This document shows positions 9,064 through 29,907 of a DNA stretch of 46,207 nt, piece after piece. The translations under genes were made by a program, and so were the position numbers. Each line of letters starts with the position of its first letter. Within the stretch, counting starts at the first letter, position 1. This stretch comes from an uncultured Burkholderiales bacterium (GTDB taxonomy: Bacteria; Pseudomonadota; Gammaproteobacteria; Burkholderiales; Burkholderiaceae_C), in NCBI GenBank assembly GCA_902825995.1, contig CADEDE010000015.1, forward strand, positions 1 through 46,207. The letters run 5' to 3'. The notes beneath the pieces were generated by a model, which saw only the letters and a program-made list of their open reading frames with translations, did not search any database and was not told the DNA's origin.

Positions 9064-9236
9064 GGCCAGGTGCTGGTGCTCGACATGGGCGAGCCGGTGA
9101 AGATCGTCGACCTGGCGCGGCAGTTGATACGGTTGTCGGGACGCAGCGAGGACGAGATCGGGCACGCGCAACAACACCGAGTCGGTGCAACAAACACTGA
9201 CCCAGCTCGTGCCCAAGTACCGCGCGGTGAGCGGTA
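9064..9236 (+). pseudogene. fragment of a CapD/WbpM-type nucleotide-sugar epimerase/dehydratase (late C-terminal part)
   Basis: The frame at 9064-9163 encodes [20 protein letters not shown] followed by [13 protein letters not shown], a segment conserved near the C-terminus of polysaccharide-biosynthesis epimerase/dehydratases. The same frame continues into a piece ending [11 protein letters not shown], which resembles the extreme C-terminus of that family, with the intervening sequence missing. There is no start codon or N-terminal domain. It lies just after parB and before the first DUF4143 ATPase. The matching middle portion of the same kind of gene is found at 10688-10893, beyond that ATPase. 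Confidence 0.65.
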
Positions 9237-14383: not shown

Positions 14384-14587
14384 GGACTGCCCATCAAAGA
14401 GCTGTGCAGGAAACACGGCTTCAGTGAGCCCAGCTACTACGCCTGGAAGGCCAAGTTCGGTGGCATGAAGGTCTCGGACGCGCAGCGTCTGAAGGCCCTT
14501 GAGGCCGAGAACGGCAAGCTCAAACGGTTGCTGGCGAATTCAATGCTGGAGGTCGATGCGATGCGCGAGGTGCTGTCGCGAAAATAG
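14381..14587 (+). pseudogene. IS3-family transposase OrfA, 5'-truncated
   Basis: The remaining product encodes AGLPIKELCRKHGFSEPSYY plus AWKAKFGGM and a leucine-zipper-like tail (LKALEAENGKLKRLLA). It is a helix-turn-helix protein that recognises the IS ends. The N-terminal start region typical of the family is missing, so it has no natural start. The frame ends in GCGAAAATAG. The A-rich run before the stop is where a -1 frameshift would normally fuse OrfA to OrfB, and orfB is indeed in the -1 frame. Confidence 0.75.
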
Positions 14588-15477
14588 TGGCCGTGGCGGC
14601 ACGGCGCGAGGTGGTGCAAGAGCTCAAGGCCCTGGGCCTGCGCGAGCGCACGGCGTTGAAGCTGGTGGGCATCAGCGCCAGCGTTCTGCGCTACCAGCCT
14701 CGCGACGACGGCAACAGCAAGCTGCGCGAGCGCCTCAAAGAGCTCGCCGGCCAGCACCGCCGCCACGGCTACCGCATGCTGCACGACCGCCTGACCCGCC
14801 AGGGCTGGGCCATCAACGTCAAGCGCACCTACCGGCTGTACCGGCAGGAAGGCCTCATGGTGCGCCAGCGTCGGCGCAAGAAGCTGCCGGTGCCCGAGCG
14901 GCAGCCACTGCTGCGACCCAGTCAACCCAATGAGGTGTGGAGCATGGACTTCGTATTCGACGAGCTGGCCACGGGCCGCAGGGTGAAGACGCTGACGGTC
15001 GTGGATGACTGCACCAAGGAGTCGGTGCAACTCGTTGCCGACACCTCGATCCCAGCGCTCTACGTGACGCGCGTACTCGACCAGGTCAAGGCCGAGCGCG
15101 GCCTGCCCAAGGTCATCCGCACCGACAACGGGCCGGAGTTCGCCGGGCGCACGATGCACGACTGGGCAGCCAGGAATGGCGTCGAGCTGCGCTTCATACA
15201 GCCCGGCAAGCCGGTGCAAAACGCATACATCGAAAGCTTCAACAGCCGCTTCAGGGACGAATGCCTGTCGCAGCACTGGTTCGCCAGCCTGAGCCACATG
15301 CGCAGCGTGCTCGACAACTGGCGCGAGGACTACAACCACCACCGTGGCCACAGCAGCCTGGGCTACGTGCCGCCGGCCGAGTTCGCCGCGCGGTGTCGCC
15401 TGCTCGCAGGCGACACCGCGCGACCCCAGCCATCAACTACGATTCAACCCCCGGACTCTAGAGCCGAGTGCTACTGA
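14587..15477 (+). CDS. IS3-family transposase OrfB (DDE integrase core)
   Basis: This product of about 296 aa has an HTH_21-like N-terminal region (RHGYRMLHDRLTRQGW) and an integrase core. The acidic triad is visible as WSMDFVFD, RTDNGPEF and NAYIESFNSRFRDECL. The C-terminus HRGHSSLGYVPPAEFA is typical of IS3 members. It normally acts as an OrfAB fusion made by -1 frameshifting from orfA. The GTG at 14587 is the first in-frame codon after the overlap. The catalytic core is complete, but the truncated orfA and missing left end make activity on this copy unlikely. Confidence 0.88.
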   Translation: MAVAARREVVQELKALGLRERTALKLVGISASVLRYQPRDDGNSKLRERLKELAGQHRRHGYRMLHDRLTRQGWAINVKRTYRLYRQEGLMVRQRRRKKLPVPERQPLLRPSQPNEVWSMDFVFDELATGRRVKTLTVVDDCTKESVQLVADTSIPALYVTRVLDQVKAERGLPKVIRTDNGPEFAGRTMHDWAARNGVELRFIQPGKPVQNAYIESFNSRFRDECLSQHWFASLSHMRSVLDNWREDYNHHRGHSSLGYVPPAEFAARCRLLAGDTARPQPSTTIQPPDSRAECY

Positions 15478-15487
15478 ACTTGGGGGC

Positions 15488-16047
15488 AGCGCAGCCTTGC
15501 TGACCGGCAGCGAAACCGTGATCACATCGCCGCTGACGCAGTCTTCGGCCTGCTGGTCGCGTAGCAGGTAGCCGATCACGCGTTGCATCCCGGTGTGCAG
15601 CGCATAGGCCTCGACGTCATGCACCAAGCCGTGCAGGCGGCGCGAAATGCCGGCCAGCATGCGCAGGGCAAAGCGGCCGTCGCGCTCGATCTCGTCGATC
15701 ACCGCGTGCTTGCCCACCGTCAGCAGCAGGGTATCGGTGAGCGCCTGCGCATTGATGAAATAGGGCTTGCCGGTGAACATCAGAGCCTCGGCAAAACTGC
15801 TGCCGGGGCCGACCAGTTCGATCACCTTCTCCTGCCCCGATGGCGACAGCGCGAACAATTTCACCTGCCCGGTCACGGTGACGTGAAAGGCCTCGCAGGG
15901 CTCGCCGCAACGGAAGACCATCTCGCCGCGCGCCAGGCGCCGCAGCGAGCAGCCTTCGGCCAGGCGCTCCAGCTCGGCCACGTTCATCTCCTGAAACAGC
16001 GGCAGCACCGACAAATAGCGAGGCAGGTTGAAAACCCGGGGATCCAC
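15488..16047 (-). pseudogene. DNR-like Crp/Fnr regulator cut off by the IS3 element
   Basis: The product begins VDPRVFNLPRYLSVLPLF (GTG at 16047). It has a cyclic-nucleotide-type sensor fold at about residues 15-115 (LARGEMVFRCGEPCEAFHVT, GQVKLFALSPSGQEKVIEL, SFAEALMFTGKPYF) and a long dimerisation helix at about 120-150. The closest family I can recall is DNR, the NO-sensing regulator of denitrification genes: same GQEKI and FAEAMMF blocks, no Fe-S cysteine set. Homology ends at SLPVSKA, exactly where the winged-helix DNA-binding domain should start, and reads into IS3 sequence. Without that domain it cannot bind DNA. It lies beside the putative NO reductase locus. Confidence 0.75.
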
Positions 16048-16104
16048 TGGATGGGGTGTGAGGAGCAGGCCGGCGCATTGTCGAAAACCGTCATGCGTCG
16101 CGAC

Positions 16105-16118
16105 TTGATAAACGTCAA
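16105..16118. promoter_or_regulatory. FNR/DNR-type box upstream of the truncated regulator
   Basis: TTGAT-AAAC-GTCAA matches nine of ten fixed positions of the FNR/DNR consensus TTGATNNNNATCAA. It lies about 65 bp upstream of the regulator start on the minus strand and overlaps the last codon of ctaA. The position suits autoregulation by an Fnr/Dnr-family protein. A related box occurs at 26866-26879. Confidence 0.55.
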
Positions 16119-17035
16119 GCCAAACGCAGCACAAGCACCAGCAATAGCACCGCAGCGAGGTTGTGCAGCAACACCGGCACCAGCGGCAGGCCGATGCTGC
16201 CGCCAGCCAGGCCGAGCGCCACCGACGCGCCCAGCAGCAGCAGCAGCGCCAGGCCCTCTCGTCGATGACCGCAGCGCAGTACCAATACGCCAAAACAAGC
16301 CACCGCCGGCGCGACGACCAGGCTGGCGAGCCGATGCAGCAATTGCGCCAGCGCGCCCTCGGCATGCGGCGACCCGACCGCAAAGGCCGCCTCGCGCCAG
16401 GGAGCCAGCGAGCGCCAATCCCAACCCGCCGCGCTGGATTGCTCGATGCATTCGCGAATGCTCGCGCAGGCCAGACCGGCCTGCGACGCGCTGACGAAGG
16501 CGCCGCTGACGATTTGTGCCATCAGCAGCACGGCAACGCCGATCGCGCCCCGGTGAAGCGTGTCCTCGCGGGGCGCCGCTGGTGCCGCCAGACGCGCGGC
16601 GATGGCCAGCATCACGAACCCACCGAGCAGGTTGCCGATGGCCACCGCCGGCAATCGGCTGCCGGGCGTGAACACACCGAGCAGCGCGAGCATCAGCGCG
16701 AGCATGAGCAAGACCAGCGACAGTGCGCCGTCGCGCCACAGTCGCGGTGGCTTGGCCAGGCTCGCGACCACCATCGCGATCACCAACAACAAGGCCAGCG
16801 TTGCGGTGATCCGATGCGCCGCACGGGCCACGGTCAAGGCCTGGCCACCGATGACGGCCGTGCCCGCCGCCGCAGCGCGCTCGCCCTGCCCGAAACACGC
16901 CGGCCAGGGCGCGCAGCCGAGACCGGCGGCGCTGTGACGCAGGTAGGCGCTGAGGCAGGTGACCGCCAGCAACAACAGCAGCGTGGACCAGGCCATCCGG
17001 CGCAGCAATCTGGAGCGTGAATCGGCGGTCAGCAT
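16115..17035 (-). CDS. ctaA: COX15/CtaA-type heme A synthase
   Basis: This protein of about 306 aa has eight hydrophobic segments arranged as two four-helix halves. Conserved pieces are SAAGLGCAPWPACFG near the first loop, AHRITATLALLL, and LHRLASLVV and LLHNLAAVLL in the second half (histidines near each helix end). The family oxidises the C8 methyl of heme O to make heme A. It points away from the oxidoreductase cluster that begins at 17167. With ctaB inside that cluster, it suggests the heme-copper enzyme uses heme O or A. ATG 17035 is preferred because the family start (SRLLRRMAW) follows closely; ATG 17107 would add a polar 24-residue leader. Confidence 0.85.
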   Translation of the reverse strand: MLTADSRSRLLRRMAWSTLLLLLAVTCLSAYLRHSAAGLGCAPWPACFGQGERAAAAGTAVIGGQALTVARAAHRITATLALLLVIAMVVASLAKPPRLWRDGALSLVLLMLALMLALLGVFTPGSRLPAVAIGNLLGGFVMLAIAARLAAPAAPREDTLHRGAIGVAVLLMAQIVSGAFVSASQAGLACASIRECIEQSSAAGWDWRSLAPWREAAFAVGSPHAEGALAQLLHRLASLVVAPAVACFGVLVLRCGHRREGLALLLLLGASVALGLAGGSIGLPLVPVLLHNLAAVLLLVLVLRLA

Positions 17036-17166
17036 GGATGGCGCGGATCGTAGGCGAAAGCCTTGCCCGCCAGCCGCGCCATCGCCCGCTTCCTTGTCCT
17101 GGATCATGTCCGGAGCCTGTCGCGCGCAACAGAATGATTTCGTCCGATCGACAACAAGGAGACGCC

Positions 17167-17328
17167 ATGAGCCCGATTCCGCACGACGACCAGACCGCCC
17201 CTGTGCCCTGGCTGCAGCAGTTGCTCGACAACCCGTTTCTGTTGCTCTTCATCGGCGTGATGGTGCCGATGGTGCTGTACACCGTGTGGGGGGTATTCGA
17301 CATCCTCACGCTGCCGACCGCGAAATAA
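17167..17328 (+). CDS. small single-span membrane peptide at the head of the heme-copper cluster
   Basis: This 53-residue peptide has a clear AAGGAG ribosome-binding site and one transmembrane helix at about residues 25-46 (LLLFIGVMVPMVLYTVWGVF). It is followed 9 bp later by the subunit II gene, which has its own Shine-Dalgarno. By size, topology and position it resembles the tiny accessory subunits (for example subunit IIa of ba3-type oxidases) that pack against subunit I. No sequence family is recognised, so the role is inferred from context. Confidence 0.7.
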   Translation: MSPIPHDDQTAPVPWLQQLLDNPFLLLFIGVMVPMVLYTVWGVFDILTLPTAK

Positions 17329-17337
17329 GGAGCCGTC

Positions 17338-17877
17338 ATGAGCGCCATCCTCCCACCCGCCGAACGGCTCTGGATTCGGCACCCGATCGATCGCGTCGAA
17401 GGCACCTGGATCGCGATCGCGCTGGTCTGGTGTCTGGTGATGTTCGTCATGATGATCGGCTGGCACATCTGGGGCAAACAAAACCTCTCGACCGAAACCT
17501 ACCGCACGACGCCGGAGAAATTCACCGCCAAGGCGCAGGCCGTGGTCGATAAATACACCGTGCGCACCGAGACCGCCGAGAAGATTCCGGTGGTCGCGCC
17601 GCCGCCGGGCAGCGACGTCTATATCGTCGCCAGCCTGTGGAAATTCTGGCCGATTCTCGAGCTGGAGAAGGGCAAGACCTACAAGCTCCATCTCACCTCG
17701 ATGGACTACAACCACGGCTTCTCGCTACAGCCGCAGAACATCAATATTCAGGTCGTGCCCGGCTTCGAGCACGTCATCACCATCACACCCAACCAGTCGG
17801 GGCCGGTGTCGATCGTGTGCAACGAATACTGCGGCATCAACCATCACACGATGGTCGGTCGCCTGTACGTCAAGTAG
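17338..17877 (+). CDS. CuA-containing heme-copper oxidoreductase subunit II (NorS/CoxB-like)
   Basis: This 179-aa protein has one N-terminal transmembrane helix (about 22-44) and a periplasmic cupredoxin domain. The CuA ligands are complete: H126 (DYNHGFSL), then C161, E163, C165, H169 and M172 in CNEYCGINHHTM. The domain is closest to short ba3-type subunit II proteins, with one helix rather than two. It should take electrons from a periplasmic carrier and pass them to the hemes of the next gene product. Context and the altered active site of its partner suggest a nitric oxide reductase of the NorSY (sNOR) or eNOR kind. A strong AAGGAG precedes the start. Confidence 0.88.
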   Translation: MSAILPPAERLWIRHPIDRVEGTWIAIALVWCLVMFVMMIGWHIWGKQNLSTETYRTTPEKFTAKAQAVVDKYTVRTETAEKIPVVAPPPGSDVYIVASLWKFWPILELEKGKTYKLHLTSMDYNHGFSLQPQNINIQVVPGFEHVITITPNQSGPVSIVCNEYCGINHHTMVGRLYVK

Positions 17878-17893
17878 GCCGGAGGATCCAAAA

Positions 17894-19588
17894 ATGACAA
17901 CCACCTACCGTACCTGCCCGCGCTCGGGCTTGCAGTTCGAGGCCAATGCCGAAAAGCTGATGATCGCCAACGCCTTCGTTGCCGTGGTCTTCCTGCTCAT
18001 CGGCGGCGTCCTGGCCATCGGCGTGGCACTGACGCGCTGGCCGGCGATCCACTGGCTGCCGGCCGACACCTTCTACCAGGTGCTCACGGCGCACGGCATC
18101 GACATGCTGATCTTCTGGATCATCTTCTTCGAGATCGCCGTCCTCTACTTCGCCTCATCGACCTTGCTGCGCTGCCGGCTGGCGACGCCGAATATCGCCT
18201 GGGCGGCCTTCGCGCTGATGCTGATCGGCGCGGTGATGAACAACGTCGCCGTGTTCCAGGGCGGCTCCAGCGTGATGATGACGTCCTACGTGCCGATGAT
18301 GGCCGCGCCGTCGTTCTACGCCGGCCTGATCCTGTTCGCCGTCGGCGCGCTGATCGCCTGCTTCGTCTTTTTCGGCACCCTGGTGGTCGCCAAGCGCGAC
18401 AAGACCTACCAGGGTTCGGTGCCGCTGGTGACCTTCGGCGCGATCACCGCGGCGATCATCGCCGTATTCACCATCGCGTCGGGCGCGATCATCCTGATCC
18501 CGACCTTCCTGATGTCGATCGGCTGGGTCAAGGAAGTCGATGCCCTGATCTATCGCACGATCTGGTGGGCCTTCGGCCACTCGTCGCAGCAGATCAATGT
18601 GGCGGCGCACATTTCGATCTGGTATGCAGCGGCGGCGATTGCCTTCGGCGCCAAGCCGATGAGCGAGCGCGTCAGCCGCATCGCGTTCCTGCTCTATATC
18701 CTGTTCCTGCAGCTGGCCAGCGCGCACCACCTGCTCGCCGACCCGGGCCTTTCAACCGGCTGGAAGGTCGTCAATACCAGCTACTTCATGTATTTCGCGG
18801 TCCTGGCCTCGATGATCCACGGCCTGACCATTCCCGGTGCGATCGAAGTCGCGCAGCGCCAGAAGGGCTACAACAAGGGCCTGTTCGAATGGCTGCGCAA
18901 GGCACCCTGGGGCAACCCAACCTTCTCGGGCGTCTTCATCGCCATCATCGGATTCGGCTTCCTGGGCGGCATTTCGGGCGTGATGATGGGCACCGAGCAG
19001 CTCAACATGATCATCCACAACACAGTCTATGTGCCGGGACACTTCCACGCCACCGTGGTGGTGGGCACCACGCTGACCTTCATGGCCCTGACCTACTTCC
19101 TGCTGCCGGTCTTGTTCAGGCGCGAAATCATCAACCCGGGCCTGGCCAAGATGCAGCCCTACCTGTTCGGCTTGTCGATGTATTTCTTCTGCCTGGTGAT
19201 GATGGGCGCCGGCACCCTGGGCGTTTCGCGCCGGCATTGGGATATGGCCTTCAGCGGCCACGCGCTGGCCTATGAATGGCCGGGCGCGGCCTACCTGATG
19301 ATGGCGCTGGTGGGCGTCGCCGGCATCGTGGCCATCGCCGGCGGCGCGATCTACGTCTATCTCACGGTGGGCACATTGCTGTGGGGCAAGAAGCTCGACA
19401 GCGGCGCGCAAAGCGCGAAGTTCACGCCGATTCCGCCGACCGCGCCGACTGCCGTGGCGCAAACCTACGGGTCGGCCGGCTTCGCGGCCCCCGGCACCTT
19501 CGCGCTGGCGATGGTCTTCCTGCTGGCCTTCATCCTCTATTACTTCATCAACTGGAAATACCTCTCGACACTGTGGGGTCTGTCGTGA
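17894..19588 (+). CDS. B-family-like heme-copper oxidoreductase subunit I with Gln at the active-site Tyr position (putative NO reductase, NorY-like)
   Basis: This 564-aa protein has about 13 hydrophobic helices. Metal ligands are in place: low-spin heme H67 (TAHGID) and H385, high-spin heme H383 (GHFHATVV), and CuB ligands H229, H278 and H279 (AHHLLADPG). In B-family O2 reductases the helix VI motif has a Tyr four residues after the CuB His, cross-linked to it and needed for O-O cleavage. Here the motif is GHSSQQ, so that position is Gln233. Loss of this Tyr marks the NO-reducing branches related to B-family enzymes (sNOR, eNOR). The order subunit II, subunit I, heme O synthase, SCO resembles norSY-senC of nitrifiers. 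The substrate is inferred, and an unusual oxidase remains possible. Confidence 0.85.
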   Translation: MTTTYRTCPRSGLQFEANAEKLMIANAFVAVVFLLIGGVLAIGVALTRWPAIHWLPADTFYQVLTAHGIDMLIFWIIFFEIAVLYFASSTLLRCRLATPNIAWAAFALMLIGAVMNNVAVFQGGSSVMMTSYVPMMAAPSFYAGLILFAVGALIACFVFFGTLVVAKRDKTYQGSVPLVTFGAITAAIIAVFTIASGAIILIPTFLMSIGWVKEVDALIYRTIWWAFGHSSQQINVAAHISIWYAAAAIAFGAKPMSERVSRIAFLLYILFLQLASAHHLLADPGLSTGWKVVNTSYFMYFAVLASMIHGLTIPGAIEVAQRQKGYNKGLFEWLRKAPWGNPTFSGVFIAIIGFGFLGGISGVMMGTEQLNMIIHNTVYVPGHFHATVVVGTTLTFMALTYFLLPVLFRREIINPGLAKMQPYLFGLSMYFFCLVMMGAGTLGVSRRHWDMAFSGHALAYEWPGAAYLMMALVGVAGIVAIAGGAIYVYLTVGTLLWGKKLDSGAQSAKFTPIPPTAPTAVAQTYGSAGFAAPGTFALAMVFLLAFILYYFINWKYLSTLWGLS

Positions 19589-19590
19589 CC

Positions 19591-19660
19591 CACCCCCGAA
19601 GCGGCTTCGCCGCTCCCCCTCGAGGGGGCACCGCTTGCGGCCTGGCAAAGCCAGATCCGC
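19591..19660. repeat. REP-like palindromic element between subunit I and ctaB
   Basis: Three stacked dyads are visible: AAGCGGC-TTC-GCCGCT, the perfect 14-bp palindrome CCCCCTCGAGGGGG (19615-19628), and CTGGC-AAA-GCCAG (19642-19654). The element fills the gap between the two genes and occupies the region where a longer ctaB N-terminus would lie. It shares layout with the repeat at 7624-7695. Confidence 0.75.
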
Positions 19661-19701
19661 GGCGGTCGCTTGGAAAGGCGACCCTGTCGCGTGGGCGGCT
19701 C

Positions 19702-20544
19702 GTGCTCGGCATCTTCAAGCTGCGCATCGGCGTGCTGATCATGATCAGCGCGCTGGCCGGCCTGGCGATCACGCCCGGCGCGGCCATCGGGGTGGTGCCG
19801 GGCCTGGTGCTGGCGCTGTCGGTGCTCGTCGCGTCGGCGAGCGCGGGGGCGTTCAACCAGTTCTACGAGGCCGAGGCCGACAAGCTGATGGCGCGCACGC
19901 GCGGGCGCGCCTTTGCCAGCGGCGCATTGACGGCGTCGCCGCTGTGGCTGACCCTTATCGGCGCGCTGCTGGTCGTTTCGGTCGGCGCAACGGCGCTCAT
20001 CGTCAACCCGCTCGCGGCGCTGTTCATCTTTCTCGGCGCCTTCTTCTACGGCGTGGTCTATACGGTCTGGCTGAAGCGCCGCACCTGGGCCAATATCGTC
20101 ATCGGCGGTTTGTCGGGCAGCTTCGCGGTGCTGGCCGGCGCGGCTGCGGTCGATCCGGCGCTGGGCGCCCTGCCGCTGCTGCTCGCGCTCGTGCTCTTCC
20201 TGTGGACGCCGCCGCATTTCTGGAGCCTGGCCATCGCCTGCCGTGACGACTACGCCGCGGCCGGCGTGCCGATGCTGCCGGTCGTCGCCGGCGTGCCGCG
20301 CGCCGCGCGCATCGTGCATGCGAATGCGCTCGTGCTGGTGGCGGTATCGCTGCTGCCGGTCTTCTTCGGCGCCGGCCCGGTCGTGCTGGCGGGTGCCGTT
20401 CTCGGCGGCGCCTACTTCCTGCGCAAGACCTGGGCTCTGGCCCGAGCGCCCAGCCGCGCCACCGCGATGGCCTCGTTCTTCGCGTCGATGGTGCAACTGA
20501 GCGCGCTGCTCGCTGCGGTGGCGATTGATGCGGCGATTCGCTGA
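19702..20544 (+). CDS. ctaB: protoheme IX farnesyltransferase (heme O synthase)
   Basis: This UbiA-fold prenyltransferase of about 280 aa has seven to nine hydrophobic segments. The first prenyl-diphosphate motif is in NQFYEAEADKLMARTRGR. The second conserved loop is WTPPHFWSLAIACRDDYAAA followed by GVPMLPVV, diagnostic for heme O synthase. It adds the farnesyl chain to heme B, supplying heme O to the neighbouring heme-copper enzyme and substrate to CtaA. GTG 19702 is chosen as the first plausible start after the REP-like repeat, but this gives a shorter N-terminus than usual. The start is uncertain. The next gene overlaps its 3' end. Confidence 0.88.
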   Translation: MLGIFKLRIGVLIMISALAGLAITPGAAIGVVPGLVLALSVLVASASAGAFNQFYEAEADKLMARTRGRAFASGALTASPLWLTLIGALLVVSVGATALIVNPLAALFIFLGAFFYGVVYTVWLKRRTWANIVIGGLSGSFAVLAGAAAVDPALGALPLLLALVLFLWTPPHFWSLAIACRDDYAAAGVPMLPVVAGVPRAARIVHANALVLVAVSLLPVFFGAGPVVLAGAVLGGAYFLRKTWALARAPSRATAMASFFASMVQLSALLAAVAIDAAIR

Positions 20545-21358
20545 AGGGCTGCTGCTCGCCGTCTTCGCATTCAGCACGGCCGCGAGCGCCGCCGAGGGCG
20601 CCGGCGCACTCGACGAGAAAGAAGCCCTGCGCGCGAGTCAGGCGGTCATCGGCCAACCGATTCCCGACGATGTGCTGCTCGATACCCGCGGACGGCCGCT
20701 GAAGCTGTCGAGCTTGCGCGGCAAGCCGCTGCTGGTGAGCTTCATCTATACCGGCTGCTTCCAGATCTGCCCGGCGCAAACCCGCGCCCTGCATGAGGCG
20801 GTGAAAGGTCTCGATGCGCGCTTCGGCGCGCACCAATACAACGTCGTCAGCATCGGCTTCAACCAGCCTTTCGATTCGCCGACGGCGATGCGCGCCTTCG
20901 CCGCGCAGCAGGGCATCGACGCGCCGAACTGGGCCTTCCTGAGCCCGCCGCTGCAAAGCGTCGAGCGCCTGACGCGCGAGTTCGGCTTCAGCTACGCGGC
21001 CACGCCGGCCGGCTTCGACCACTTGTTGGGCGTCAGCATCGTCGATGCCGCCGGGCGCATCCACACGCAAGTCCTCGGCAACCGCCTCAGCGCGGCGCAG
21101 CTCGGCGAACCGCTGCGCGAGCTGCTCGGCGCCGCGCCGCTGGCGCAAGGCCTGCGCCTGGACGCGCTGGTCGAACGCATCCGCATCCTGTGCACGGTCT
21201 ATGACCCCGAGACCGGCGCCTACCGCTACGATTACAAGCTGATCTTCGAGATCGCCGGCGGCCTGACCTTCTTCACGAGCGTGGGCATCTATCTGCTGCT
21301 CGAACTGCTGCGACGGCGCAAGCAGACGAGGCTCCATCACCCGGTGCTGCTTCGATGA
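20528..21358 (+). CDS. SCO1/SenC family copper-delivery protein with C-terminal membrane helix
   Basis: This 276-aa protein has a signal peptide (cleavage near ASAAEG) and a thioredoxin-like SCO domain at about 30-200. The copper site is CFQIC plus a His in GFDHLLGV. A C-terminal extension ends in a transmembrane helix (FEIAGGLTFFTSVGIYLLLEL) and a basic tail, unlike typical SCO proteins anchored at the N-terminus. SCO proteins insert copper into the CuA site of subunit II, which fits the gene at 17338. A SenC gene also follows norSY in nitrifiers. The ATG lies inside the end of ctaB. Confidence 0.88.
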   Translation: MRRFAEGLLLAVFAFSTAASAAEGAGALDEKEALRASQAVIGQPIPDDVLLDTRGRPLKLSSLRGKPLLVSFIYTGCFQICPAQTRALHEAVKGLDARFGAHQYNVVSIGFNQPFDSPTAMRAFAAQQGIDAPNWAFLSPPLQSVERLTREFGFSYAATPAGFDHLLGVSIVDAAGRIHTQVLGNRLSAAQLGEPLRELLGAAPLAQGLRLDALVERIRILCTVYDPETGAYRYDYKLIFEIAGGLTFFTSVGIYLLLELLRRRKQTRLHHPVLLR

Positions 21359-21380
21359 GTGCCGGCCGCGAGTTCCGGCC

Positions 21381-22913
21381 GTGAGCTTGGCCCTCTGGCG
21401 TCGCGTCGAGCATGGCTTCGACGCTGTATTCGGCGCGCCGCTGAACCCGTTGCGCCATCTCGGCGCCCTGGGCTTCCTCAGCTTCTGGCTGCTGGCGGCC
21501 AGCGGCATCTACCTGTATGCGGTGCTCGACACCTCGGTCGCGGGCGCCTACCGCTCGATCGTCGATCTGTCGCAGCAGCAGCCCTGGCTCGGCGGCCTGC
21601 TGCGCAGCCTGCACCGCTATGCGGCCGATGCCTTCGTGATCCTGATGGCGCTGCACCTGCTGCGTGAATGGCTGCACGGCCACTATCGCGGCGTGCGCCG
21701 CTTTTCGTGGCTGACCGGCGTGCCGCCCGTCGCGCTGGTATTTGCCAGCGCCATCGGCGGCATCTGGCTGCATTGGGATCGGCTGGCCCAATATTCGGCG
21801 GTCGCCACCGCTGAATGGTTCGACGCCTTGCCGCTGCTGGCCGCGCCACTGGCGCGCAACTTCCTGTCCGACGGCGCGGTCAGCGACCGGCTGTTCTCGC
21901 TGTTCGTCTTCGTCCACCTCGGCGTGCCGCTGCTGCTGCTGTTTGCGCTGTGGTTCCACATTCAGCGCCTGACGCGCGCGGCGGTGTGGCCGCCGCGGCC
22001 GGTCGGCCTGGGCTTGTTCGGCACGCTGCTGCTATTGGCCATCGTGGCGCCGGTCAGCAGCCACGCGCCGGCCGATCTGGCCACGGTGCCGCAGGCGCTG
22101 CGCCTGGACTGGCTGTTGCTCTTCATCCACCCGCTGGCCGAAGCCGCATCGCCCGCCGTGGCCTGGGCCCTGGTCGGCGGTGCCTTCCTGACGCTGTTTG
22201 CGCTGCCCTTCCTGCGCCAGCCGGCGCGCGCGCCGGTGGCCGTCGTCGATCCCGCCAACTGCAACGGCTGCCGGCGCTGTTTTGCCGATTGCCCGTTTGC
22301 GGCGATCACGATGGTGCCGCACCCCAATCAAAAAATCGGCAAGCAAATGGCCGTCGTCGATGCCGACCTGTGTGCCAGTTGCGGCATCTGCGCCGGCGCC
22401 TGCCCCTCGTCAACGCCATTTCGCAGCGTCGTCGAACTGGTGACCGGCATCGACATGCCCTCGGCGCCGATCGGCGCCCTGCGCCAGCGCATGCAACGCG
22501 GCCTGGCGGCATTGCAAGCCGCGCGGCCGATCGTCGTCTTCGGCTGCGACCACGGCGCCGCGGTCGCGCCGCTCGCCGCGCCCGACGTCGCCGCCTTCAG
22601 CCTGGTCTGCACCGGCCAGCTGCCGCCGTCCTTCGTCGAATACGCCTTGCGCGACGGCGCGGCCGGCGTGCTGGTCAGCGGCTGCCGGCCGGGCGGCTGC
22701 GAGTTCCGCCTCGGCACGCGCTGGACCGAGGAACGCCTGCTCGGCCTGCGCGAGCCGCATCTGCGCGCCGAAGTTCCGCGCGAGCGCCTCGAAGTCGCCT
22801 GGGCCGACCCGGGCGAAGACCTCACGCTGCAGCGCGCGCTCGAGCGCCTGCGCGAGCGGGTACGCTGTGCGCATGACGGCGTCGGCCCCAAACCCAAGGC
22901 CAGCCATGCCTGA
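21381..22913 (+). CDS. cytochrome b - 2x[4Fe-4S] ferredoxin - MvhD/FlpD-like fusion protein
   Basis: This 510-aa fusion has three parts. Residues about 25-200 are a cytochrome b6-like four-helix bundle with two bis-His heme sites (H78/H179 and H92/H193, each pair in one helix 14 apart). Two further helices follow. Residues 294-341 hold two [4Fe-4S] motifs (CNGCRRCFADCP and CASCGICAGACP). Residues about 380-480 resemble the MvhD/FlpD small iron-sulfur subunit of methyl-viologen hydrogenase and heterodisulfide reductase systems (C389, C410, C435, C440; VLVSGCRPGGCEF). The fusion should link membrane hemes, hence quinone, to cytoplasmic iron-sulfur carriers. The start is a GTG reached from a nine-codon mini-ORF (21355-21384) that overlaps the SCO stop. 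The function is inferred. Confidence 0.8.
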   Translation: MSLALWRRVEHGFDAVFGAPLNPLRHLGALGFLSFWLLAASGIYLYAVLDTSVAGAYRSIVDLSQQQPWLGGLLRSLHRYAADAFVILMALHLLREWLHGHYRGVRRFSWLTGVPPVALVFASAIGGIWLHWDRLAQYSAVATAEWFDALPLLAAPLARNFLSDGAVSDRLFSLFVFVHLGVPLLLLFALWFHIQRLTRAAVWPPRPVGLGLFGTLLLLAIVAPVSSHAPADLATVPQALRLDWLLLFIHPLAEAASPAVAWALVGGAFLTLFALPFLRQPARAPVAVVDPANCNGCRRCFADCPFAAITMVPHPNQKIGKQMAVVDADLCASCGICAGACPSSTPFRSVVELVTGIDMPSAPIGALRQRMQRGLAALQAARPIVVFGCDHGAAVAPLAAPDVAAFSLVCTGQLPPSFVEYALRDGAAGVLVSGCRPGGCEFRLGTRWTEERLLGLREPHLRAEVPRERLEVAWADPGEDLTLQRALERLRERVRCAHDGVGPKPKASHA

Positions 22914-23439
22914 CCCGACCCTCGCCCCCCGGCCTGTCCTGCCCGCCAGCGCCTGGATCGGCCAGTTGCTGCTGTATGCCCTGTTCGCGCTGGCCATCGG
23001 CGTGTTCTCGCGCTGGCCCAGCTACCAACATATCGCGCCGGATCAGGCGCTGATCAAGCTCAGCTTCACGCACACGGGCAAACCGGTCGGCGAGTGCAAG
23101 GCGCAAAGCCAGGCCGAGTTGGCCAAGCTGCCGCCGAATATGCGCGCGCCGATCAAATGCCCGCGCGAGCGCTCGCCGGTGACGGTCGAGGTCGATATCG
23201 GCGGCATCAACGCAATGCGCCGCTCCGCGCCGCCGACGGGCCTGTCGCGCGACGGCGCCTCGGCGGTCTATCAGCGCCTGGTCGTTCCCGCCGGCGAACA
23301 GCGCATTGCCGTGCGCCTGAACGATGATGCGCGCCAGGCCGGCTTCGCCTACCAGCGCGAAGTCACGGTCAAACTGGCGCCGGCCCAGATCCTGGTCATC
23401 GATTTCGACGCCGAAAAGGGCGGCATCACCTTGCAGTGA
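22906..23439 (+). CDS. membrane-anchored periplasmic protein of unknown function
   Basis: This 177-aa protein has one transmembrane helix (about 15-35) followed by a periplasmic domain of mainly beta character. Two cysteines (GECKAQ and IKCPRER) could form a disulfide. I recognise no family. Its ATG overlaps the end of the cytochrome b fusion, and the next heme-copper paralogue follows at 23447, so it belongs to the cluster. FixH-like or copper-chaperone-like roles are conceivable from size and topology but have no motif support. Confidence 0.7.
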   Translation: MPDPTLAPRPVLPASAWIGQLLLYALFALAIGVFSRWPSYQHIAPDQALIKLSFTHTGKPVGECKAQSQAELAKLPPNMRAPIKCPRERSPVTVEVDIGGINAMRRSAPPTGLSRDGASAVYQRLVVPAGEQRIAVRLNDDARQAGFAYQREVTVKLAPAQILVIDFDAEKGGITLQ

Positions 23440-23446
23440 ACTTGCG

Positions 23447-24913
23447 ATGATCATCAGCCAATGGCCCTCACCCCGGCCCTCTCCCGCCAGCGGGAGAGGG
23501 GGCGAATCTGCCTCCCTCGCCCCCGTACTCGGGGGAGAGGGTTGGGGTGAGGGGGTTGCCGCTGCGGCCGACTTCAGCCTGCCAATCGCCGGCGACACGC
23601 AGCGGGCGCTGGCGCGCGGCTGGCTCTACCTCGGCCTGGTCGCGTTGATCGGATCGGGTTTGTTCTCGCTGCTGCTGGTGCTGGCGCGAACGCCGGGCAT
23701 CAGTGCCTGGCTGCCGACGGGCGACTTCTTCCGCGTCTCGCTGGTGGTCCACGTCGATCTCTCGGTGCTGGTCTGGTTCAGTGCCATTGCCGGCATGTTG
23801 TGGAGCCTGAATACCGCCGCGCGCGGCGCCGTCTGGAGTTGGGTCGCGCTGGGCCTGTGCGCCGCCGGCAGCTTGCTGATGTCGCTGGCGGCCTTCGTCA
23901 GCCCGGGCACGCCGATCATGGCCAACTACATCCCGGTGCTCGACAGCCCGCTGTTCCATGCCGGCCTGGCGGTCTTCGGCGCGGGCGCGGCGCTCCAGGT
24001 GCTGCGCAGCCTGTGGGCGGCCGAACGCATCGGACCTGCCCCGGGCGGCGAAGGCGCGCTGCGCTTCGGCCTCAACGCCAGCGTGGTCGCGGCCGCCGTG
24101 GCCTTGCTCGCCATGGCCGCGTCGCTGGCCCTGGTGCCGACCGTGCTCGACGGCAAGGCGTACTACGAAATCCTCTTCTGGGGCGTCGGCCATGCGCTGC
24201 AATTCACCTGGACGCTGCTGATGCTGGTGGCCTGGCTGTGGTTGGCGCAGGCCTGCGGCGCGCGCGTGGCGCTGAGCCCGCGCGTGGTGTTGCTGCTCTT
24301 CGCATTGGCGCTGGCCAGCGTCTTCGTCACGCCGTATGCCTACCTGGCGCACGACGTGGCCAGCGTCGAGCACCGCGTGCTGCACACCTGGGCCATGCGC
24401 TTCGGCGGCGGCCTGGCGATCTTCCCGGTAGCCTTGGCGGTGGTGCTGGCGCTGGCGCGCGCGCGCGATTTGCCGCCGAACGCGCGGCCGCTGCGCGCGG
24501 CGCTGTGGTCGTCGATCGGGCTCTTCGCCGCCGGTGGCGTGATCGGCCTGTTCATCGGCGGCAGCAATGTCACCATCCCCGCGCATTACCACGGCTGCAT
24601 CGTCGGTGTGACGCTGGCGCTGATGGGCCTGGTGTATCTGCTGTTGCCGCAGCTCGGCTGGCGCGCACCGCAAGGCCGGCTCGCGGTGGCGCAGCCGGTG
24701 CTGTATGCCGTGGGCCAGTTCATGCACATCGCCGGCCTGGTCTGGTCGGGCGGCTACGGCGTGCAACGCAAGGTGGCGGGCAGCGAGCAGGTGCTGCGCG
24801 GCACGGGCGAGATCGCCGGCATGGGCCTGATGGGCCTGGGCGGGCTGGTCGCCATCGTCGGCGGCCTGCTGTTCGTGGTCGTCGTCTGGCGCGCAATGCG
24901 CACGCGCCGATGA
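23447..24913 (+). CDS. second heme-copper oxidoreductase subunit I paralogue with degenerate CuB site
   Basis: This 488-aa protein has about 12 hydrophobic helices. It is related to the subunit I at 17894: compare NYIPVLDSPLFHAGL with SYVPMMAAPSFYAGL. Heme ligands appear kept: H102 (VVHVDLSVLVW) and H380/H382 (IPAHYHGC). The CuB site is altered: H249 (GVGHALQF) has Phe at the Tyr/Gln position, and the paired histidines are replaced by AHDVASVEH (H302 then D303). It may carry hemes without CuB, acting as an electron-transfer or structural partner, or may bind another metal. The first 35 codons lie in a REP-like repeat, so the true start may be later. It overlaps the next gene by 4 bp. Confidence 0.78.
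   Translation: MIISQWPSPRPSPASGRGGESASLAPVLGGEGWGEGVAAAADFSLPIAGDTQRALARGWLYLGLVALIGSGLFSLLLVLARTPGISAWLPTGDFFRVSLVVHVDLSVLVWFSAIAGMLWSLNTAARGAVWSWVALGLCAAGSLLMSLAAFVSPGTPIMANYIPVLDSPLFHAGLAVFGAGAALQVLRSLWAAERIGPAPGGEGALRFGLNASVVAAAVALLAMAASLALVPTVLDGKAYYEILFWGVGHALQFTWTLLMLVAWLWLAQACGARVALSPRVVLLLFALALASVFVTPYAYLAHDVASVEHRVLHTWAMRFGGGLAIFPVALAVVLALARARDLPPNARPLRAALWSSIGLFAAGGVIGLFIGGSNVTIPAHYHGCIVGVTLALMGLVYLLLPQLGWRAPQGRLAVAQPVLYAVGQFMHIAGLVWSGGYGVQRKVAGSEQVLRGTGEIAGMGLMGLGGLVAIVGGLLFVVVVWRAMRTRR
23465..23553. repeat. inverted-repeat element inside the 5' end of the second heme-copper gene
   Basis: The 89-bp element has outer arms CCCTCACCCC (23465-23474) and GGGGTGAGGG (23544-23553) and inner arms CCCTCTCCC and GGGAGAGGG. 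This CCCTCACCCC/CCCTCTCCC palindrome type is scattered in many proteobacterial genomes. It is read in frame as a low-complexity Pro/Gly/Ser leader. Confidence 0.8.
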
Positions 24914-26817
24914 TGGGGGCCTTCCAACGCCTGTTGCGCGCGGGTTTCATGCACGCCGAGGCGCTGTTCAATCGCGCCTTCGGCGATAAGTTGAACCCGC
25001 TGTACCACCTCGGCGCGACGATCTTCTTCCTCTTCTGGGTGGTTGGCGCCAGCGGCCTGTACCTCTACGCCTTCTTCGACACCAGCGTCGAAGGCGCCTA
25101 CCGCTCGGTGCAGGCACTGACCGAAGGGCAGTGGTATGCCGGCGGGATCCTGCGCAGCGTGCACCGCTATGCCTCGGACGCGATGGTGGCGACGATGGCG
25201 GTGCATGCGCTGCGCTATTTCGCCTTCGACCGCCTGCGCGCCTTTCGCTGGTTCTCCTGGGTCAGCGGCGTGGCGCTGATCTGGCTGGTCTATGCCGCGG
25301 GCGCCAACGGCTACATGCTGCCGTGGGACCGGCTGGCGCAGTTCGTCACCCAGGCCAGCTTCGAGTGGCTGGATTGGCTGCCCGGTTTCGGCGGCAGCCT
25401 GATCCGCAATTTCATTTACCCGGCCAGCGTCAGCGATCGGCTGTTTTCGCTGCTGGTCTTCATCCATATCGGCGTGCCGCTGCTCGCGCTGCTGGTGATG
25501 TGGGTGCATGTGCAGCGCGTGCCCAAGGCGGCCACGCAACCGCCGCGGCCGATCGCGCTGGCAGTGCTGGCGATGTTGCTGGTTATGGCCATCGTGCAGC
25601 CGGTCGTCAGCCAGGGCGGCGCGGCGAACCTGGCCCTGGCCCCGGCCGTGCTCGAACTCGATTGGTTCCTGCTCGCGCTGTATCCGCTGATCTATGCCTG
25701 GCCGCTGGGCGGCGTCTGGGCCTTCGTCGGCCTGGGCACCCTCGTGCTGCTGCTGATGCCGTGGCTGCCGCCGCGGCGCGGCCCGCGCACTGATTTGCAT
25801 CTGACGATGCACCCGGGGGCCGTACCGGTCAGCGCGCGCGCCGGCGAAACCCTGCTCGAAGCCGGCCTGCGCGCGGGCCTGACGCTGCCCTGCGACTGCC
25901 GCGCCGGCGGCTGCGGGCGCTGCGTCTGCACGATCCTGAATGGCCAGGTCGATCCGGGGCCCTACCAACCCACCACCCTGACCGAGGCGATGCGCGCACG
26001 CGGCCAGGCGCTGATGTGCTGCGCGGTGGCCCTCGACGATGTCGAGCTCGAAGTCGATGTGCCTTCGTTCGGCGCGAGCGTTGCCACCCGGCGCTGGCAG
26101 GGCCGCATCGAAAGCCTCGAACGCATCGCCGCGAACGTGATGCGTGTGCGCATTGCGCTGCCCGGCGGAGAACGTATCGCCTTCGCCGCCGGCCAGTACA
26201 TCCATATCGTCCTGCCCGATGGCCAACGCCGCGCGTTTTCGTTTGCCAACCCGCCGAATGACAACGCATTGATCGAGCTGCACGTGCGGCATATCCCCGG
26301 CGGCCTGTTCACGACCCGGGTGTTCACGACCATGCAGCCCGGCGATGCGATCGACTTTGAGGGCCCACTGGGCCGCTTCACGCTGCGCGAAAGCCAGCGG
26401 CCGATCCTCTTCGTGGCCGGCGCCACGGGCTTTGCGCCGATCAAGAGCATCGTCGAAGATGCATTCCAGCGCGGCATCCGGCGCCCGATGCAGCTCTATT
26501 GGGGCGTGCGCGAGGCCGCGGATTTGTATGCGCTCGATCTGGCTGAGCGATGGCAACGCGAGCACGCCAATTTCAGTGTCGTGCCGGTCCTGTCGCAGGT
26601 CGCGCCCGGCGACCCCTGGCCCGGCCGCCGCGGCTGGGTGCACGAGGCCATGCTCGCCGACCACCCGGACCTGTCGGGTTACGAGGTCTATGCCTGCGGC
26701 TCGGTGCAGATGGTCGAGGCGGCCGTGCCGGCTTTCCTGGCCCGGGGGCTGGGTGAACAGTTCTGCTTCTCCGACGCTTTCGTACCCGCCGCGGCCGCAT
26801 CGACAGCAACGGCCTGA
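24910..26817 (+). CDS. cytochrome b - [2Fe-2S] ferredoxin - flavin/NAD(P)H reductase fusion protein
   Basis: This 635-aa fusion begins with a cytochrome b6-like four-helix bundle (residues about 30-205; bis-His pairs H85/H186 and H99/H200; b6-like GYMLPWDRL). Two more helices follow. A plant-type [2Fe-2S] domain comes next at about 295-385 (C330, C335, C338, then the CC at 370-371). A ferredoxin-NADP reductase-like module fills about 395-625, with RAFSFAN for FAD, GATGFAPIKSI for NAD(P) and ACGSVQMVEAA near the end. Electrons should flow NAD(P)H to FAD to [2Fe-2S] to the b hemes, or the reverse. The cytochrome part is paralogous to that at 21381. Its ATG overlaps the preceding stop. It is the last gene of the cluster. 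Confidence 0.82.
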   Translation: MMGAFQRLLRAGFMHAEALFNRAFGDKLNPLYHLGATIFFLFWVVGASGLYLYAFFDTSVEGAYRSVQALTEGQWYAGGILRSVHRYASDAMVATMAVHALRYFAFDRLRAFRWFSWVSGVALIWLVYAAGANGYMLPWDRLAQFVTQASFEWLDWLPGFGGSLIRNFIYPASVSDRLFSLLVFIHIGVPLLALLVMWVHVQRVPKAATQPPRPIALAVLAMLLVMAIVQPVVSQGGAANLALAPAVLELDWFLLALYPLIYAWPLGGVWAFVGLGTLVLLLMPWLPPRRGPRTDLHLTMHPGAVPVSARAGETLLEAGLRAGLTLPCDCRAGGCGRCVCTILNGQVDPGPYQPTTLTEAMRARGQALMCCAVALDDVELEVDVPSFGASVATRRWQGRIESLERIAANVMRVRIALPGGERIAFAAGQYIHIVLPDGQRRAFSFANPPNDNALIELHVRHIPGGLFTTRVFTTMQPGDAIDFEGPLGRFTLRESQRPILFVAGATGFAPIKSIVEDAFQRGIRRPMQLYWGVREAADLYALDLAERWQREHANFSVVPVLSQVAPGDPWPGRRGWVHEAMLADHPDLSGYEVYACGSVQMVEAAVPAFLARGLGEQFCFSDAFVPAAAASTATA

Positions 26818-26865: not shown

Positions 26866-26879
26866 ATGATCTGCGTCAA
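26866..26879. promoter_or_regulatory. FNR/DNR-like box upstream of the small cytochrome c gene
   Basis: ATGAT-CTGC-GTCAA matches eight of ten fixed positions of TTGATNNNNATCAA. It shares the GTCAA right half with the box at 16105. Its centre is about 92 bp before the ATG at 26965. It is plausible for an Fnr/Dnr-regulated promoter but weak on its own. Confidence 0.4.
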
Positions 26880-26964
26880 TCGGGCGCACACACAGCCCCC
26901 AACCGGCGCCGACCGCAGATGTAGATTAGCCTTTGCCGATTCAATCACCGCCAAGGCCATCGCC

Positions 26965-27318
26965 ATGAAAAGAACCATCCCCCCGACGACCGGCCTGATG
27001 CCTGTCGTCGCTGCCGTGCTGATGGGGGTGGCCGCACCCGCCTTCGGGCTCGACGCCGACGCCGACGCTGCGCAGGCCCTGGCCAAGAAGAGCCATTGCA
27101 CCAAGTGCCATTCTGTCGATAAGAAAAAGGAAGGCCCGCCCTACAGGGAGACCGCCGCAAAATACAAGGGTCAGGCCGACGCCGCACAGAAGCTCTTGAC
27201 GCACCTGACCACCAGCCCGAAGGTCAAGGTCGACGGCAAGGAGGAAGAACACGCTGCCGTCAAGAGCAAGGACGAGGCCGAGATCAAGAACCTGATCGCC
27301 TACATCCTGTCGCAGTGA
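26965..27318 (+). CDS. small class I-like c-type cytochrome without an axial methionine
   Basis: This 117-aa protein has a signal peptide (cleavage after about APAFG, residue 28) and one heme-binding motif, CTKCH at 45-49. The fold looks like class I: heme motif early and the final helix AEIKNLIAYILSQ at the end. The mature part has no methionine at all, so the usual Met sixth ligand is impossible. H96 in GKEEEHAAV sits in the expected loop and could give bis-His coordination, or the site may be open. It is followed 52 bp later by a NapC-type gene, so it may exchange electrons with that protein. Confidence 0.85.
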   Translation: MKRTIPPTTGLMPVVAAVLMGVAAPAFGLDADADAAQALAKKSHCTKCHSVDKKKEGPPYRETAAKYKGQADAAQKLLTHLTTSPKVKVDGKEEEHAAVKSKDEAEIKNLIAYILSQ

Positions 27319-27370
27319 AGTCGCCGGGTCGTCCGCATCGACAAAAACAAACCAGGATCGGGATCCGACC

Positions 27371-28003
27371 ATGACGAATCTTCTCGCCACGCTGCGCCGC
27401 CGCTGGAAGCTTGCGCTCGGCCTGACCCTGATCGGCGTATTTGCCGCGATGTCGCTGGTCATCGGCGGCGCCTACGGGCTGGCGGTGACGAGCACCGAGG
27501 AGTTTTGCATCGGCTGCCACGAGATGCGGAACAACGTCTATGCCGAGTACAAGGGCACGATCCACGACACCAACCGCAGCGGCGTGCGGGCCATCTGCAC
27601 CGACTGCCACGTGCCGCATGAGCCGGTGCCGTTGATCCTGCGCAAGATGCGTGCGACCTTCGAGGTCATCGGCCATCTGCGCGGGATCATCGATACCAAG
27701 GAGAAGTTCGAGGCCCATCGCGCCCTGCTTGCGCAGCGCGTCTGGACGCGCATGCTCGAGACCGACTCGCACGAATGCCGCAACTGCCACGTCGCCGAGA
27801 AGATGGACCAGGACAAGCAGACCGAGAAGGCGCAGGCGCGCCATGCCAAGGCCCAGGCCGAGGGCTGGACCTGCATCGAATGCCACTACGGGATTGCCCA
27901 CACCGAACCCGCCGGCCCAGGCCCGCAGGAGTTGCGCGAGAAGCTGAAGCTTGCGCGCGTGGCGGCAGCGGCGTCGGTTCCGCAGCAGGCCATTCAGAAG
28001 TAA
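27371..28003 (+). CDS. NapC/NirT/CymA-type tetraheme cytochrome c
   Basis: This 210-aa protein has an N-terminal membrane anchor (about 14-37) and four c-heme motifs: CIGCH (46-50), CTDCH (76-80), CRNCH (136-140) and CIECH (168-172). Family members oxidise membrane quinol and pass electrons to periplasmic partners such as nitrate reductase, fumarate reductase or MtrA-type conduits. No nap or nir genes are in the window. The neighbours (a small cytochrome, an Mtr-like remnant and a heme-binding periplasmic protein) favour a CymA-like hub role. Confidence 0.92.
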   Translation: MTNLLATLRRRWKLALGLTLIGVFAAMSLVIGGAYGLAVTSTEEFCIGCHEMRNNVYAEYKGTIHDTNRSGVRAICTDCHVPHEPVPLILRKMRATFEVIGHLRGIIDTKEKFEAHRALLAQRVWTRMLETDSHECRNCHVAEKMDQDKQTEKAQARHAKAQAEGWTCIECHYGIAHTEPAGPGPQELREKLKLARVAAAASVPQQAIQK

Positions 28004-28051
28004 TGGGGAGGACGAAGTAAGTTACTTTTGCCCGAGACTGAGGGGAGCAGA

Positions 28052-28519
28052 ATGAGATCCGCTTTCTTGCCGTTGGGCTCTGCCGCCATGCTGGCAGCCG
28101 TATTGACGGGTTGCGGCGGCGGCAGTTCGGATCCGGTAGCGCCGGTGGTGGTCACGCCGCCGATCGTGCAGGCGGCCATCGCTGCGGCTGCGGCGGTGGC
28201 TGCAAATGACGCGGCGAGCAATTCTTCCGCGCCTTTTACCGTGCTCCAGGGTGCCGGCGTACCGGCCGTGACCGTCAACAGCACGCCCAAGGTGAATTTC
28301 GCCGTGTTCTCCGACGGCGCCGTGAAGACCGGCCTGGTCATCAGCAACGTCAGCGTCGAATTGCGGCTCGACCTGGTTCATCAGCGCTCGAACTGGGCCG
28401 ACTGGACCTGGGCCTACAACGGCGTGCCCTTCACCTATTCCGACGGCGCCACGGTCGGCCAACAGCCGCGCCAGAACGCCAGCTTCGTCGGCCTGCGCTA
28501 TGTCTACAAATGGCTTTGA
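28052..28519 (+). pseudogene. chimeric lipoprotein: MtrC/OmcA-like start joined to MtrB/PioB-like barrel end
   Basis: This 155-aa product has a lipoprotein signal (LAAVLTGCGGG, Cys21). Residues to about 100 (SAPFTVLQGAGVPAVTVNS, KVNFAVFSDGAVKTGLVISN) resemble the N-terminal region of MtrC/OmcA-type extracellular decaheme lipoproteins. The rest (ELRLDLVHQRSNWADWTW, VPFTYSDGATV, NASFVGLRYVYKW) reads like the final beta-strands of an MtrB/PioB-type outer-membrane barrel, ending in an aromatic residue two positions from the C-terminus. No CXXCH motif is present. The simplest reading is an in-frame deletion of several kilobases across an extracellular-electron-transfer cluster, or an assembly collapse of one. 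ATG 28052 follows a GAGGGGAG ribosome-binding site. Confidence 0.55.
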
Positions 28520-28584
28520 TTTCTTGCGCCGCGGCGGGAACGCTCGCGGTGTCGCAACCGACCTTCAACCCACCAGGGAATGCA

Positions 28585-29889: not shown

Positions 29890-29907
29890 TCGGCCGAGGG
29901 CCGACGC

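Follow-up and report, generated by a model that had tools for sequence, protein, structure and literature searches.

A candidate eNOR-type nitric oxide reductase operon and its recurrent cytochrome b fusion partners in a Burkholderiales genome

Contig CADEDE010000015.1 of an uncultured Burkholderiales bacterium (assembly GCA_902825995.1) carries, within the 46,207-nucleotide stretch analyzed here as a whole and called the window, nine closely packed genes for a heme-copper enzyme, its maturation factors and two cytochrome b fusion proteins. The catalytic subunit (subunit I) is preceded by a CuA subunit, has the three CuB histidines (His) together with a glutamine (Gln), is encoded with a heme o synthase and an SCO chaperone, and co-occurs with the first of the cytochrome b fusions across two genome surveys. 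We give about an even chance to the interpretation that the run is an operon for an eNOR-type nitric oxide (NO) reductase, encoding also its maturation factors and a cytoplasmic module dedicated to electron exchange. The eNOR itself is already known; its near-constant partner genes were not met with in the literature searched.

Identity of the catalytic subunit

According to PMC8756737, one diagnostic residue tells the NO reductases (NORs) and the oxygen reductases apart, being Gln in eNOR, asparagine (Asn) in sNOR, aspartate in gNOR, glutamate (Glu) in cNOR and qNOR and tyrosine (Tyr) in the oxygen reductases. Among 103 rows of subunit I, seven of them unreadable, the helix VI motif is GHSSQQIN (92 rows), GHSSQQVN (2), GHPSQQIN (1) or GHSAQQVN (1), and each of the 96 readable rows, which represent 95 distinct sequences (loci L044 and L156 are one contig), has Gln where oxidases have Tyr. 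All 17 aligned rows retain the six metal and heme His, and the gene directly upstream encodes a cupredoxin-type CuA subunit II whose ligands H126, C161, E163, C165, H169 and M172 are kept in 18 of 18. The closest solved structures in a search of the PDB are 7deg and ba3-type oxidases. The Gln, the CuA subunit directly upstream and the B-type relatives are all shared with eNOR as described in PMC8756737 and PMC8879329; the latter relates that subtype ba3-a1 was renamed eNOR once NO reductase activity was reported, and PMC11388526 treats eNOR as biochemically characterized and related to the B family. By this residue test we file subunit I as a putative eNOR-type NO reductase.

Membership in three other groups was considered and rejected. 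Subunit I shares fold and His ligands with the B-type (ba3) oxygen reductases but has Gln in place of their active-site Tyr, and its CuA subunit and Gln stand against the cytochrome c or fused quinol-type subunit and the Glu of cNOR and qNOR. A comparison with norSY (sNOR), made in the first-pass annotation of the window, fails because sNOR carries Asn where eNOR and subunit I carry Gln (PMC8756737), and Gln, not Asn, is what every readable row has. The order small peptide, CuA subunit, subunit I and SCO is the same in norSY-senC and in the type I cluster of the Bacillus qCuANOR (PMC3475470, PMC3772326); unlike the operon here, these clusters are described without naming cytochrome b genes in the portions of the two papers available. 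To eNOR, in turn, the operon adds the cytochrome b-Fe-S-FlpD fusion, an anchored protein, SCO, heme o synthase, a heme-copper paralogue and the cytochrome b-FNR fusion.

Plasmid homologues with Gln occur in Defluviimonas (60%), Thermus thermophilus (46–48%) and Thermomicrobium roseum (44%); B-type rows from Haloarcula, Geobacillus, Caballeronia and genome G362 bear Tyr, as does locus L191. A 26-row tree, with several long branches, a midpoint root and a sequence set that excludes published eNOR accessions, groups the 16 Gln rows, Thermus and Thermomicrobium included, with support of 94/96, the five Tyr rows with 100/100 and five paralogues with 100/100. Helix X of subunit I reads GHFK in two Thermus thermophilus plasmid loci (L186 and L187) and GHFH or AHFH in the other rows; the lysine takes the place of a His that is presumably the usual low-spin heme ligand.

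The nine genes and the distribution of the partners

All nine forward-strand genes that the first-pass annotation had described as tightly packed at 17167–26817 are present there as open reading frames, with intergenic gaps of -47 to +22 bases (Table 1). The identities it had listed are likewise borne out, by the CuA ligands, by matches to TIGR01473 and SCO1-SenC, by the two cytochrome b fusions and by the anchored protein that falls in no family; what it had overlooked are the divergent ctaA, the Crp-type regulator, the FlpD/MvhD domain and the active-site Gln. The SCO residues C78, C82 and H166 are kept in 20 of 20 rows, and the small peptide matched no Pfam family in the domain search. The residue alignments A1, A2, A3 and A4 keep 14 of 17, 18 of 21, 24 of 33 and 15 of 20 rows, the others having been dropped for internal stops, read-through starts or length.

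Table 1. Genes of the nine-gene run and the two genes divergent from it, with window coordinates
Feature	Position	Strand	Basis
Crp-type regulator	15433–16062	-	cNMP_binding only; FtrB-like, positions 11–179 of 236 matched
Divergent heme A synthase family gene (ctaA)	16115–17107	-	COX15-CtaA, 72 bits (cut-off 30)
Single-helix membrane peptide, 53 amino acids	17167–17328	+	one hydrophobic segment
CuA subunit II of putative NO reductase	17338–17877	+	CoxB match; COX2 score slightly below cut-off
Catalytic subunit I, putative eNOR type, Gln233 at oxidase Tyr position	17894–19588	+	COX1 match
Heme o synthase (CtaB/CyoE)	19585–20544 (start codon has alternative candidates)	+	TIGR01473, 251 bits (cut-off 210)
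SCO/SenC copper chaperone	20525–21358	+	SCO1-SenC above cut-off
Cytochrome b + two [4Fe-4S] + FlpD/MvhD fusion	21381–22913	+	domain searches; conserved heme His and Cys
Membrane-anchored beta-sandwich protein, no assigned function	22867–23439	+	no family; predicted model
Heme-copper paralogue without helix VII CuB His pair	about 23447–24913	+	COX1 match
Second cytochrome b + [2Fe-2S] + FAD + NAD fusion	24910–26817	+	domain search

In the first cytochrome b, the spacing of four His (H78, H92, H179 and H193) fits two b hemes; these His are kept in the 19 to 20 rows with letters at their positions, and all cysteines (Cys) of its Fe-S/FlpD tail are kept in 20 of 20. Its membrane part is similar to the ExtP cytochrome b (NF040969) and its tail to the C-terminal region of HdrA2 (NF040770), both with scores below the family cut-offs; the fusion thus joins likenesses of both and equals neither protein. 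The second cytochrome b likewise has four His placed for two b hemes (H85, H99, H186 and H200), which all 69 rows conserve along with the Cys of the [2Fe-2S] site, and ends in a BenC-like [2Fe-2S]-FAD-NAD tail; the tails of both fusions would lie in the cytoplasm. Because the two genes are visible as direct repeats in the DNA (71–73%, spacing 3550) and their proteins are 50% identical over 270 residues, one of the two arose through duplication. Genome G156 has (L043:1175–3712, - strand) a cytochrome b with a diflavin-reductase-like flavodoxin-FAD-NAD tail in place of [2Fe-2S]-FAD-NAD; the same membrane part is here joined to an NAD(P)H reductase of another kind, which we count in favor of an electron-exchange module.

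The anchored protein consists of one N-terminal helix and a beta-sandwich, in a predicted model with a predicted local distance difference test (pLDDT) score of 92.4, and C77, C98, R93, R100 and R102 are invariant across 18 rows. It matched no family in the domain libraries, and a structure search gave no PDB match at E 0.001, none of the 50 matches listed exceeding a template modeling (TM) score of 0.34 on the query.

Presence and absence of these genes were scored in 369 genomes of one class, with cut-offs of E 1e-60 for subunit I, 1e-40 for the first fusion and 1e-10 for the anchored protein. Subunit I was found in 35 genomes (a count that includes G362, a distant Tyr-bearing B-type), the first fusion in 34, the anchored protein in 35 and all three in 33, the anchored protein being present in 34 of 34 genomes with the first fusion and in G099 besides. 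For the overlap of subunit I and first fusion, also 33 genomes, the hypergeometric p is 1.5e-43, uncorrected for relatedness. The exceptions to the three-gene overlap are G264, in which the contig stops right after subunit I, G362, and the incomplete genomes G215 (77% complete) and G099 (73%).

A scan of named genomes by way of the first fusion, present there by construction, took the best 80 of at least 489 relatives at E 1e-3, i.e. the closest ones. Their loci hold relatives of the anchored protein (77), SCO (74), subunit I (70), the small peptide and the CuA subunit (67 each), heme o synthase (64), the paralogue (63), ctaA (36) and the Crp-type regulator (19), and the FNR domain of the second cytochrome b lies near the first fusion in 70 of these mostly betaproteobacterial loci. 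The exact gene order of the window recurs in 30 of the 80, so the grouping of the nine is more than chance. Cultivable environmental strains that have the complete operon include Ramlibacter lithotrophicus RBP-1, Comamonas granuli and Paucibacter oligotrophus. Ten loci have no adjacent subunit I, four of them from Accumulibacter and the other six mostly near a contig end; the gene lies elsewhere in nine of these genomes (4/4 Accumulibacter, 5/6 others) and is missing only in the L093 genome. With 70 adjacent and nine elsewhere, 79 of 80 named genomes therefore have both first fusion and subunit I. Independent travel of the cytochrome b and heme-copper genes, which the first-pass annotation had named as the outcome contrary to its proposal, was looked for and not seen in either set. 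Pairwise distances of seven of the longer proteins correlate at Spearman 0.61–0.81, those of the paralogue with the others at 0.28–0.49, and part of this correlation is common descent, the set holding no housekeeping control. Beyond these genomes, the run on a plasmid of the alphaproteobacterium Defluviimonas starts with the peptide and continues with the CuA subunit, subunit I, heme o synthase, SCO, the cytochrome b and the anchored protein, followed by a hemerythrin; it has neither the paralogue nor the FNR tail.

The paralogue is a looser companion of the operon than the other genes. It keeps H104, H251, H382 and H384 (helix II, helix VI and two of helix X) in 33 of 33 rows; the earlier label 'CuB-less' is fair in that the His-His pair of helix VII is gone, but one of the three CuB His remains in all 33. 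As a catalytic heme-copper oxidoreductase, which would have all three, it was rejected. Its predicted model (pLDDT 88.6) has the fold of subunit I, with TM scores on the query of 0.74 to ba3 and 0.76 to bovine aa3 (range 0.74–0.77); a PDB search with its sequence gave no match at E 1, and the plasmid collection holds no relative. The first ~35 residues (window 23447–23550) are low in complexity and rich in proline, serine and glycine, unlike the N termini of its relatives, and may be an in-frame reading of an intergenic repeat; a search within the window turned up no direct copy of this tail.

The paralogue occurs in 46 class genomes, 28 with subunit I and 18 without it, seven further genomes having subunit I and no paralogue; the 46 derive from 52 matches after removal of G111, G167, G214, G228 and G264, which matched only via subunit I, and of the doubtful G061. 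Among 25 copies outside the operon (including that of G061 and one on a very short contig of 3.7 kb), 15 are no more than 6 kb away from cox, ctaA, ctaB or SCO genes. Together with the retained heme His, the lost CuB pair, the genomes in which subunit I is absent and the weakest co-divergence with the operon, these neighbors suggest a general heme-handling assembly factor for heme-copper enzymes, outside the electron path. Against this stand the ten copies without such neighbors, one or more of which come from a very short contig, and the named loci, 54 of which have the paralogue close to the cytochrome b genes and on the same strand as the operon (nine have it on the opposite strand, and some of the 17 without a visible copy are cut by contig ends). 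We regard the assembly-factor reading and that of a subunit in the electron path as evenly balanced. The proposal that all nine genes form one set is partly supported: subunit I, the first fusion and the anchored protein keep together, and the place of the paralogue as a core member is weakened by its 18 genomes without subunit I, its low distance correlation and its neighbors elsewhere.

Flanking genes and nitrogen-oxide setting

The window belongs to an assembly of 2.82 Mb in 140 contigs with a stated completeness of 100%, whose matches to the COX1 family are pieces of an aa3 and of a cbb3 oxidase, subunit I and the paralogue, with neither a cNOR nor a qNOR among them. A cytochrome d1 (nirS-like) protein is 68–69% identical to a NirS-like protein of L044, while the genome gave no match to nirK and only narG matches far below the cut-off. 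Because the d1 protein is present and no cNOR or qNOR was seen, we may fairly infer that NO comes from NirS and that eNOR is the sole recognizable NOR of this draft genome. Among related loci, the cluster lies near d1-heme genes in L044, nirJ in L048 (TIGR04051, above cut-off), a hemerythrin in L042, as on the Defluviimonas plasmid, and dsrA in L038 (TIGR02064, above cut-off), and an annotated nirS adjoins the eNOR copy of the Thermus TF24 plasmid.

The nearness of the Crp-type regulator suggests that it may be part of the operon system; a scan of the domain libraries found no recognizable helix-turn-helix or other DNA-binding domain in it. A transposase-type integrase reading frame (14587–15477, + strand) abuts the end of this FtrB-like gene, and a simple scan for terminal inverted repeats of a transposon found none. 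The relative of the regulator in L037 (12743–13495, - strand) covers the FtrB model almost to the model end.

Downstream of the nine genes, the next gene on the forward strand encodes a cytochrome c and starts 150 bases on; window positions 26866–33201 (+) hold this cytochrome c, a NapC-type tetraheme cytochrome, an ethylbenzene-dehydrogenase-like protein, a methyltransferase and SdhA/SdhB-like proteins. Relatives of the NapC and ethylbenzene-dehydrogenase-like genes lie near the operon in just three of the 80 named loci, and the pair recurs away from the operon in L059 (G099), L080, L138 and L150. Near heme A synthase genes of other loci, membrane proteins of 433–438 amino acids that look alike by eye are encoded at L037:11464–12777, L038:12994–14292 and L068:5019–6320 (all +). 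They matched no Pfam family at a meaningful score, nor, for L037 and L038, any in NCBIfam, and an initial guess that they are NnrS was dropped for want of support from these libraries. A NorB reading of L039:12186–13568 was also discarded, the libraries giving COX1 and weak CtaD/ccoN matches.

Electron flow, alternatives and significance

From this gene content we infer the direction of electron flow, the physical contact of the proteins in a complex, and the substrate and product. NAD(P)H and a ferredoxin- or Hdr-like carrier would donate electrons to the cytoplasmic tails, from where these would pass through the b hemes to quinone or to the CuA side, and NO made by NirS would be reduced to nitrous oxide (N2O) at eNOR. 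The anchored protein may, at a guess, help assembly or act as a bridge, and the paralogue may be a heme-handling or structural accessory. A bolder proposal, which we put forward tentatively and think somewhat unlikely, is that the proteobacterial eNOR forms one membrane complex, in which a cytochrome b subunit fed by NAD(P)H and another fed by a ferredoxin- or Hdr-like carrier would directly drive NO reduction while bypassing complex I and bc1; in its boldest form the cytochrome b chains would share electrons, and NO reduction would be coupled to the reduction of ferredoxin or NAD+ (confurcating or bifurcating).

Several observations weigh against an eNOR operon with its own electron-exchange module. 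Among the class loci examined, the second cytochrome b is near the operon just in the window and in L037; in G082 it is full-length (56%) and is separated from the operon by ~1.9 Mb of contig, and four Accumulibacter loci have their cytochrome b genes apart from subunit I. The nirS-like match of the own genome is broken, by an assembly error or by real damage, over two frames ~100 bases apart (L197, contig C29, about 7401–9187). No relative of the cytochrome b, the anchored protein or SCO lies closer than 9 kb to the eNORs of Thermus and Thermomicrobium, and the module is thus dispensable for eNOR as such; these two have the peptide, CuA subunit and subunit I together, Thermomicrobium with a heme o synthase in addition. 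Since Defluviimonas has both the first fusion and the anchored protein and Thermus and Thermomicrobium have neither, the pair seems, from these three outside records, to have joined an older eNOR core in the proteobacteria. The earlier description of the gene set as a 'self-contained respiratory system' goes further than sequence can show for a complex or for the direction of electrons, and the Thermus and Thermomicrobium eNORs do without the partners nearby.

The broken linkage in at least four Accumulibacter loci and in G082, like the distant eNORs without cytochrome b genes, would also be expected if the cytochrome b genes were mere neighbors under a common low-oxygen regulation, each product feeding the quinone pool separately. 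We find this doubtful, as co-occurrence at the genome level persists where linkage is broken (4/4; 79/80 overall) and the same core is met on the alphaproteobacterial plasmid. Alternatively the flow could be reversed, the cytochrome b proteins taking electrons from quinol and the membrane potential driving the reduction of NAD(P)+ or ferredoxin, with the tie to eNOR lying in redox balance at low oxygen. Here the 'novel quinol reductase' of Accumulibacter is relevant, a protein that we take to be a cytochrome b-[2Fe-2S]-FAD-NAD (FNR) fusion; the fusion is present in 10 of 10 Accumulibacter loci. PMC4930944 reports that reductase in most Accumulibacter genomes, with a proposed role in anaerobic quinone reoxidation and a direction from quinol to NAD(P)+, and does not mention eNOR in the portion available. 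In PMC6446978, 'ba3' transcripts of UW-1 are high in the anaerobic stage and those of UW-LDO-IC change little, these ba3 genes being likely the same operon genes as studied here. We nevertheless think a reversed flow unlikely: a near-constant NO reductase partner (33 of 369 class genomes, 79 of 80 named) favors electron delivery or shared use, and the quinol reductase proposal is itself, as far as PMC4930944 tells, untried by experiment.

That subunits I and II are instead a high-affinity B-type oxygen reductase and the operon one for microaerobic respiration seems to us very unlikely. The relatives of subunit I are B-type and annotated as ba3- or cbb3-type oxidases in public records, the Accumulibacter ba3 is handled as an oxidase in PMC6446978, and the related sNOR has been argued to be a possible oxidase (PMC6967387). 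Yet all 96 readable rows have Gln where an oxidase has Tyr, reports on eNOR give it NO reductase activity or call it biochemically characterized (PMC8879329, PMC11388526), and the genome already has aa3 and cbb3 oxidases.

Our search of the literature on NO reductases and on Accumulibacter cytochromes, a partial one, found no eNOR with these cytochrome b partners, and the gene set may already be published. Annotation often presents eNOR as a cytochrome oxidase, and surveys of N2O producers miss it; its near-constant partner may serve as a second marker of eNOR in gamma- and betaproteobacteria such as Accumulibacter, Ramlibacter, Comamonas, Sulfuritalea and others. The partner gene also hints at the source of electrons for eNOR, and, if the 'novel quinol reductase' of the phosphorus-removing sludge bacteria is indeed the cytochrome b-FNR fusion, that reductase would be tied to NO reduction.

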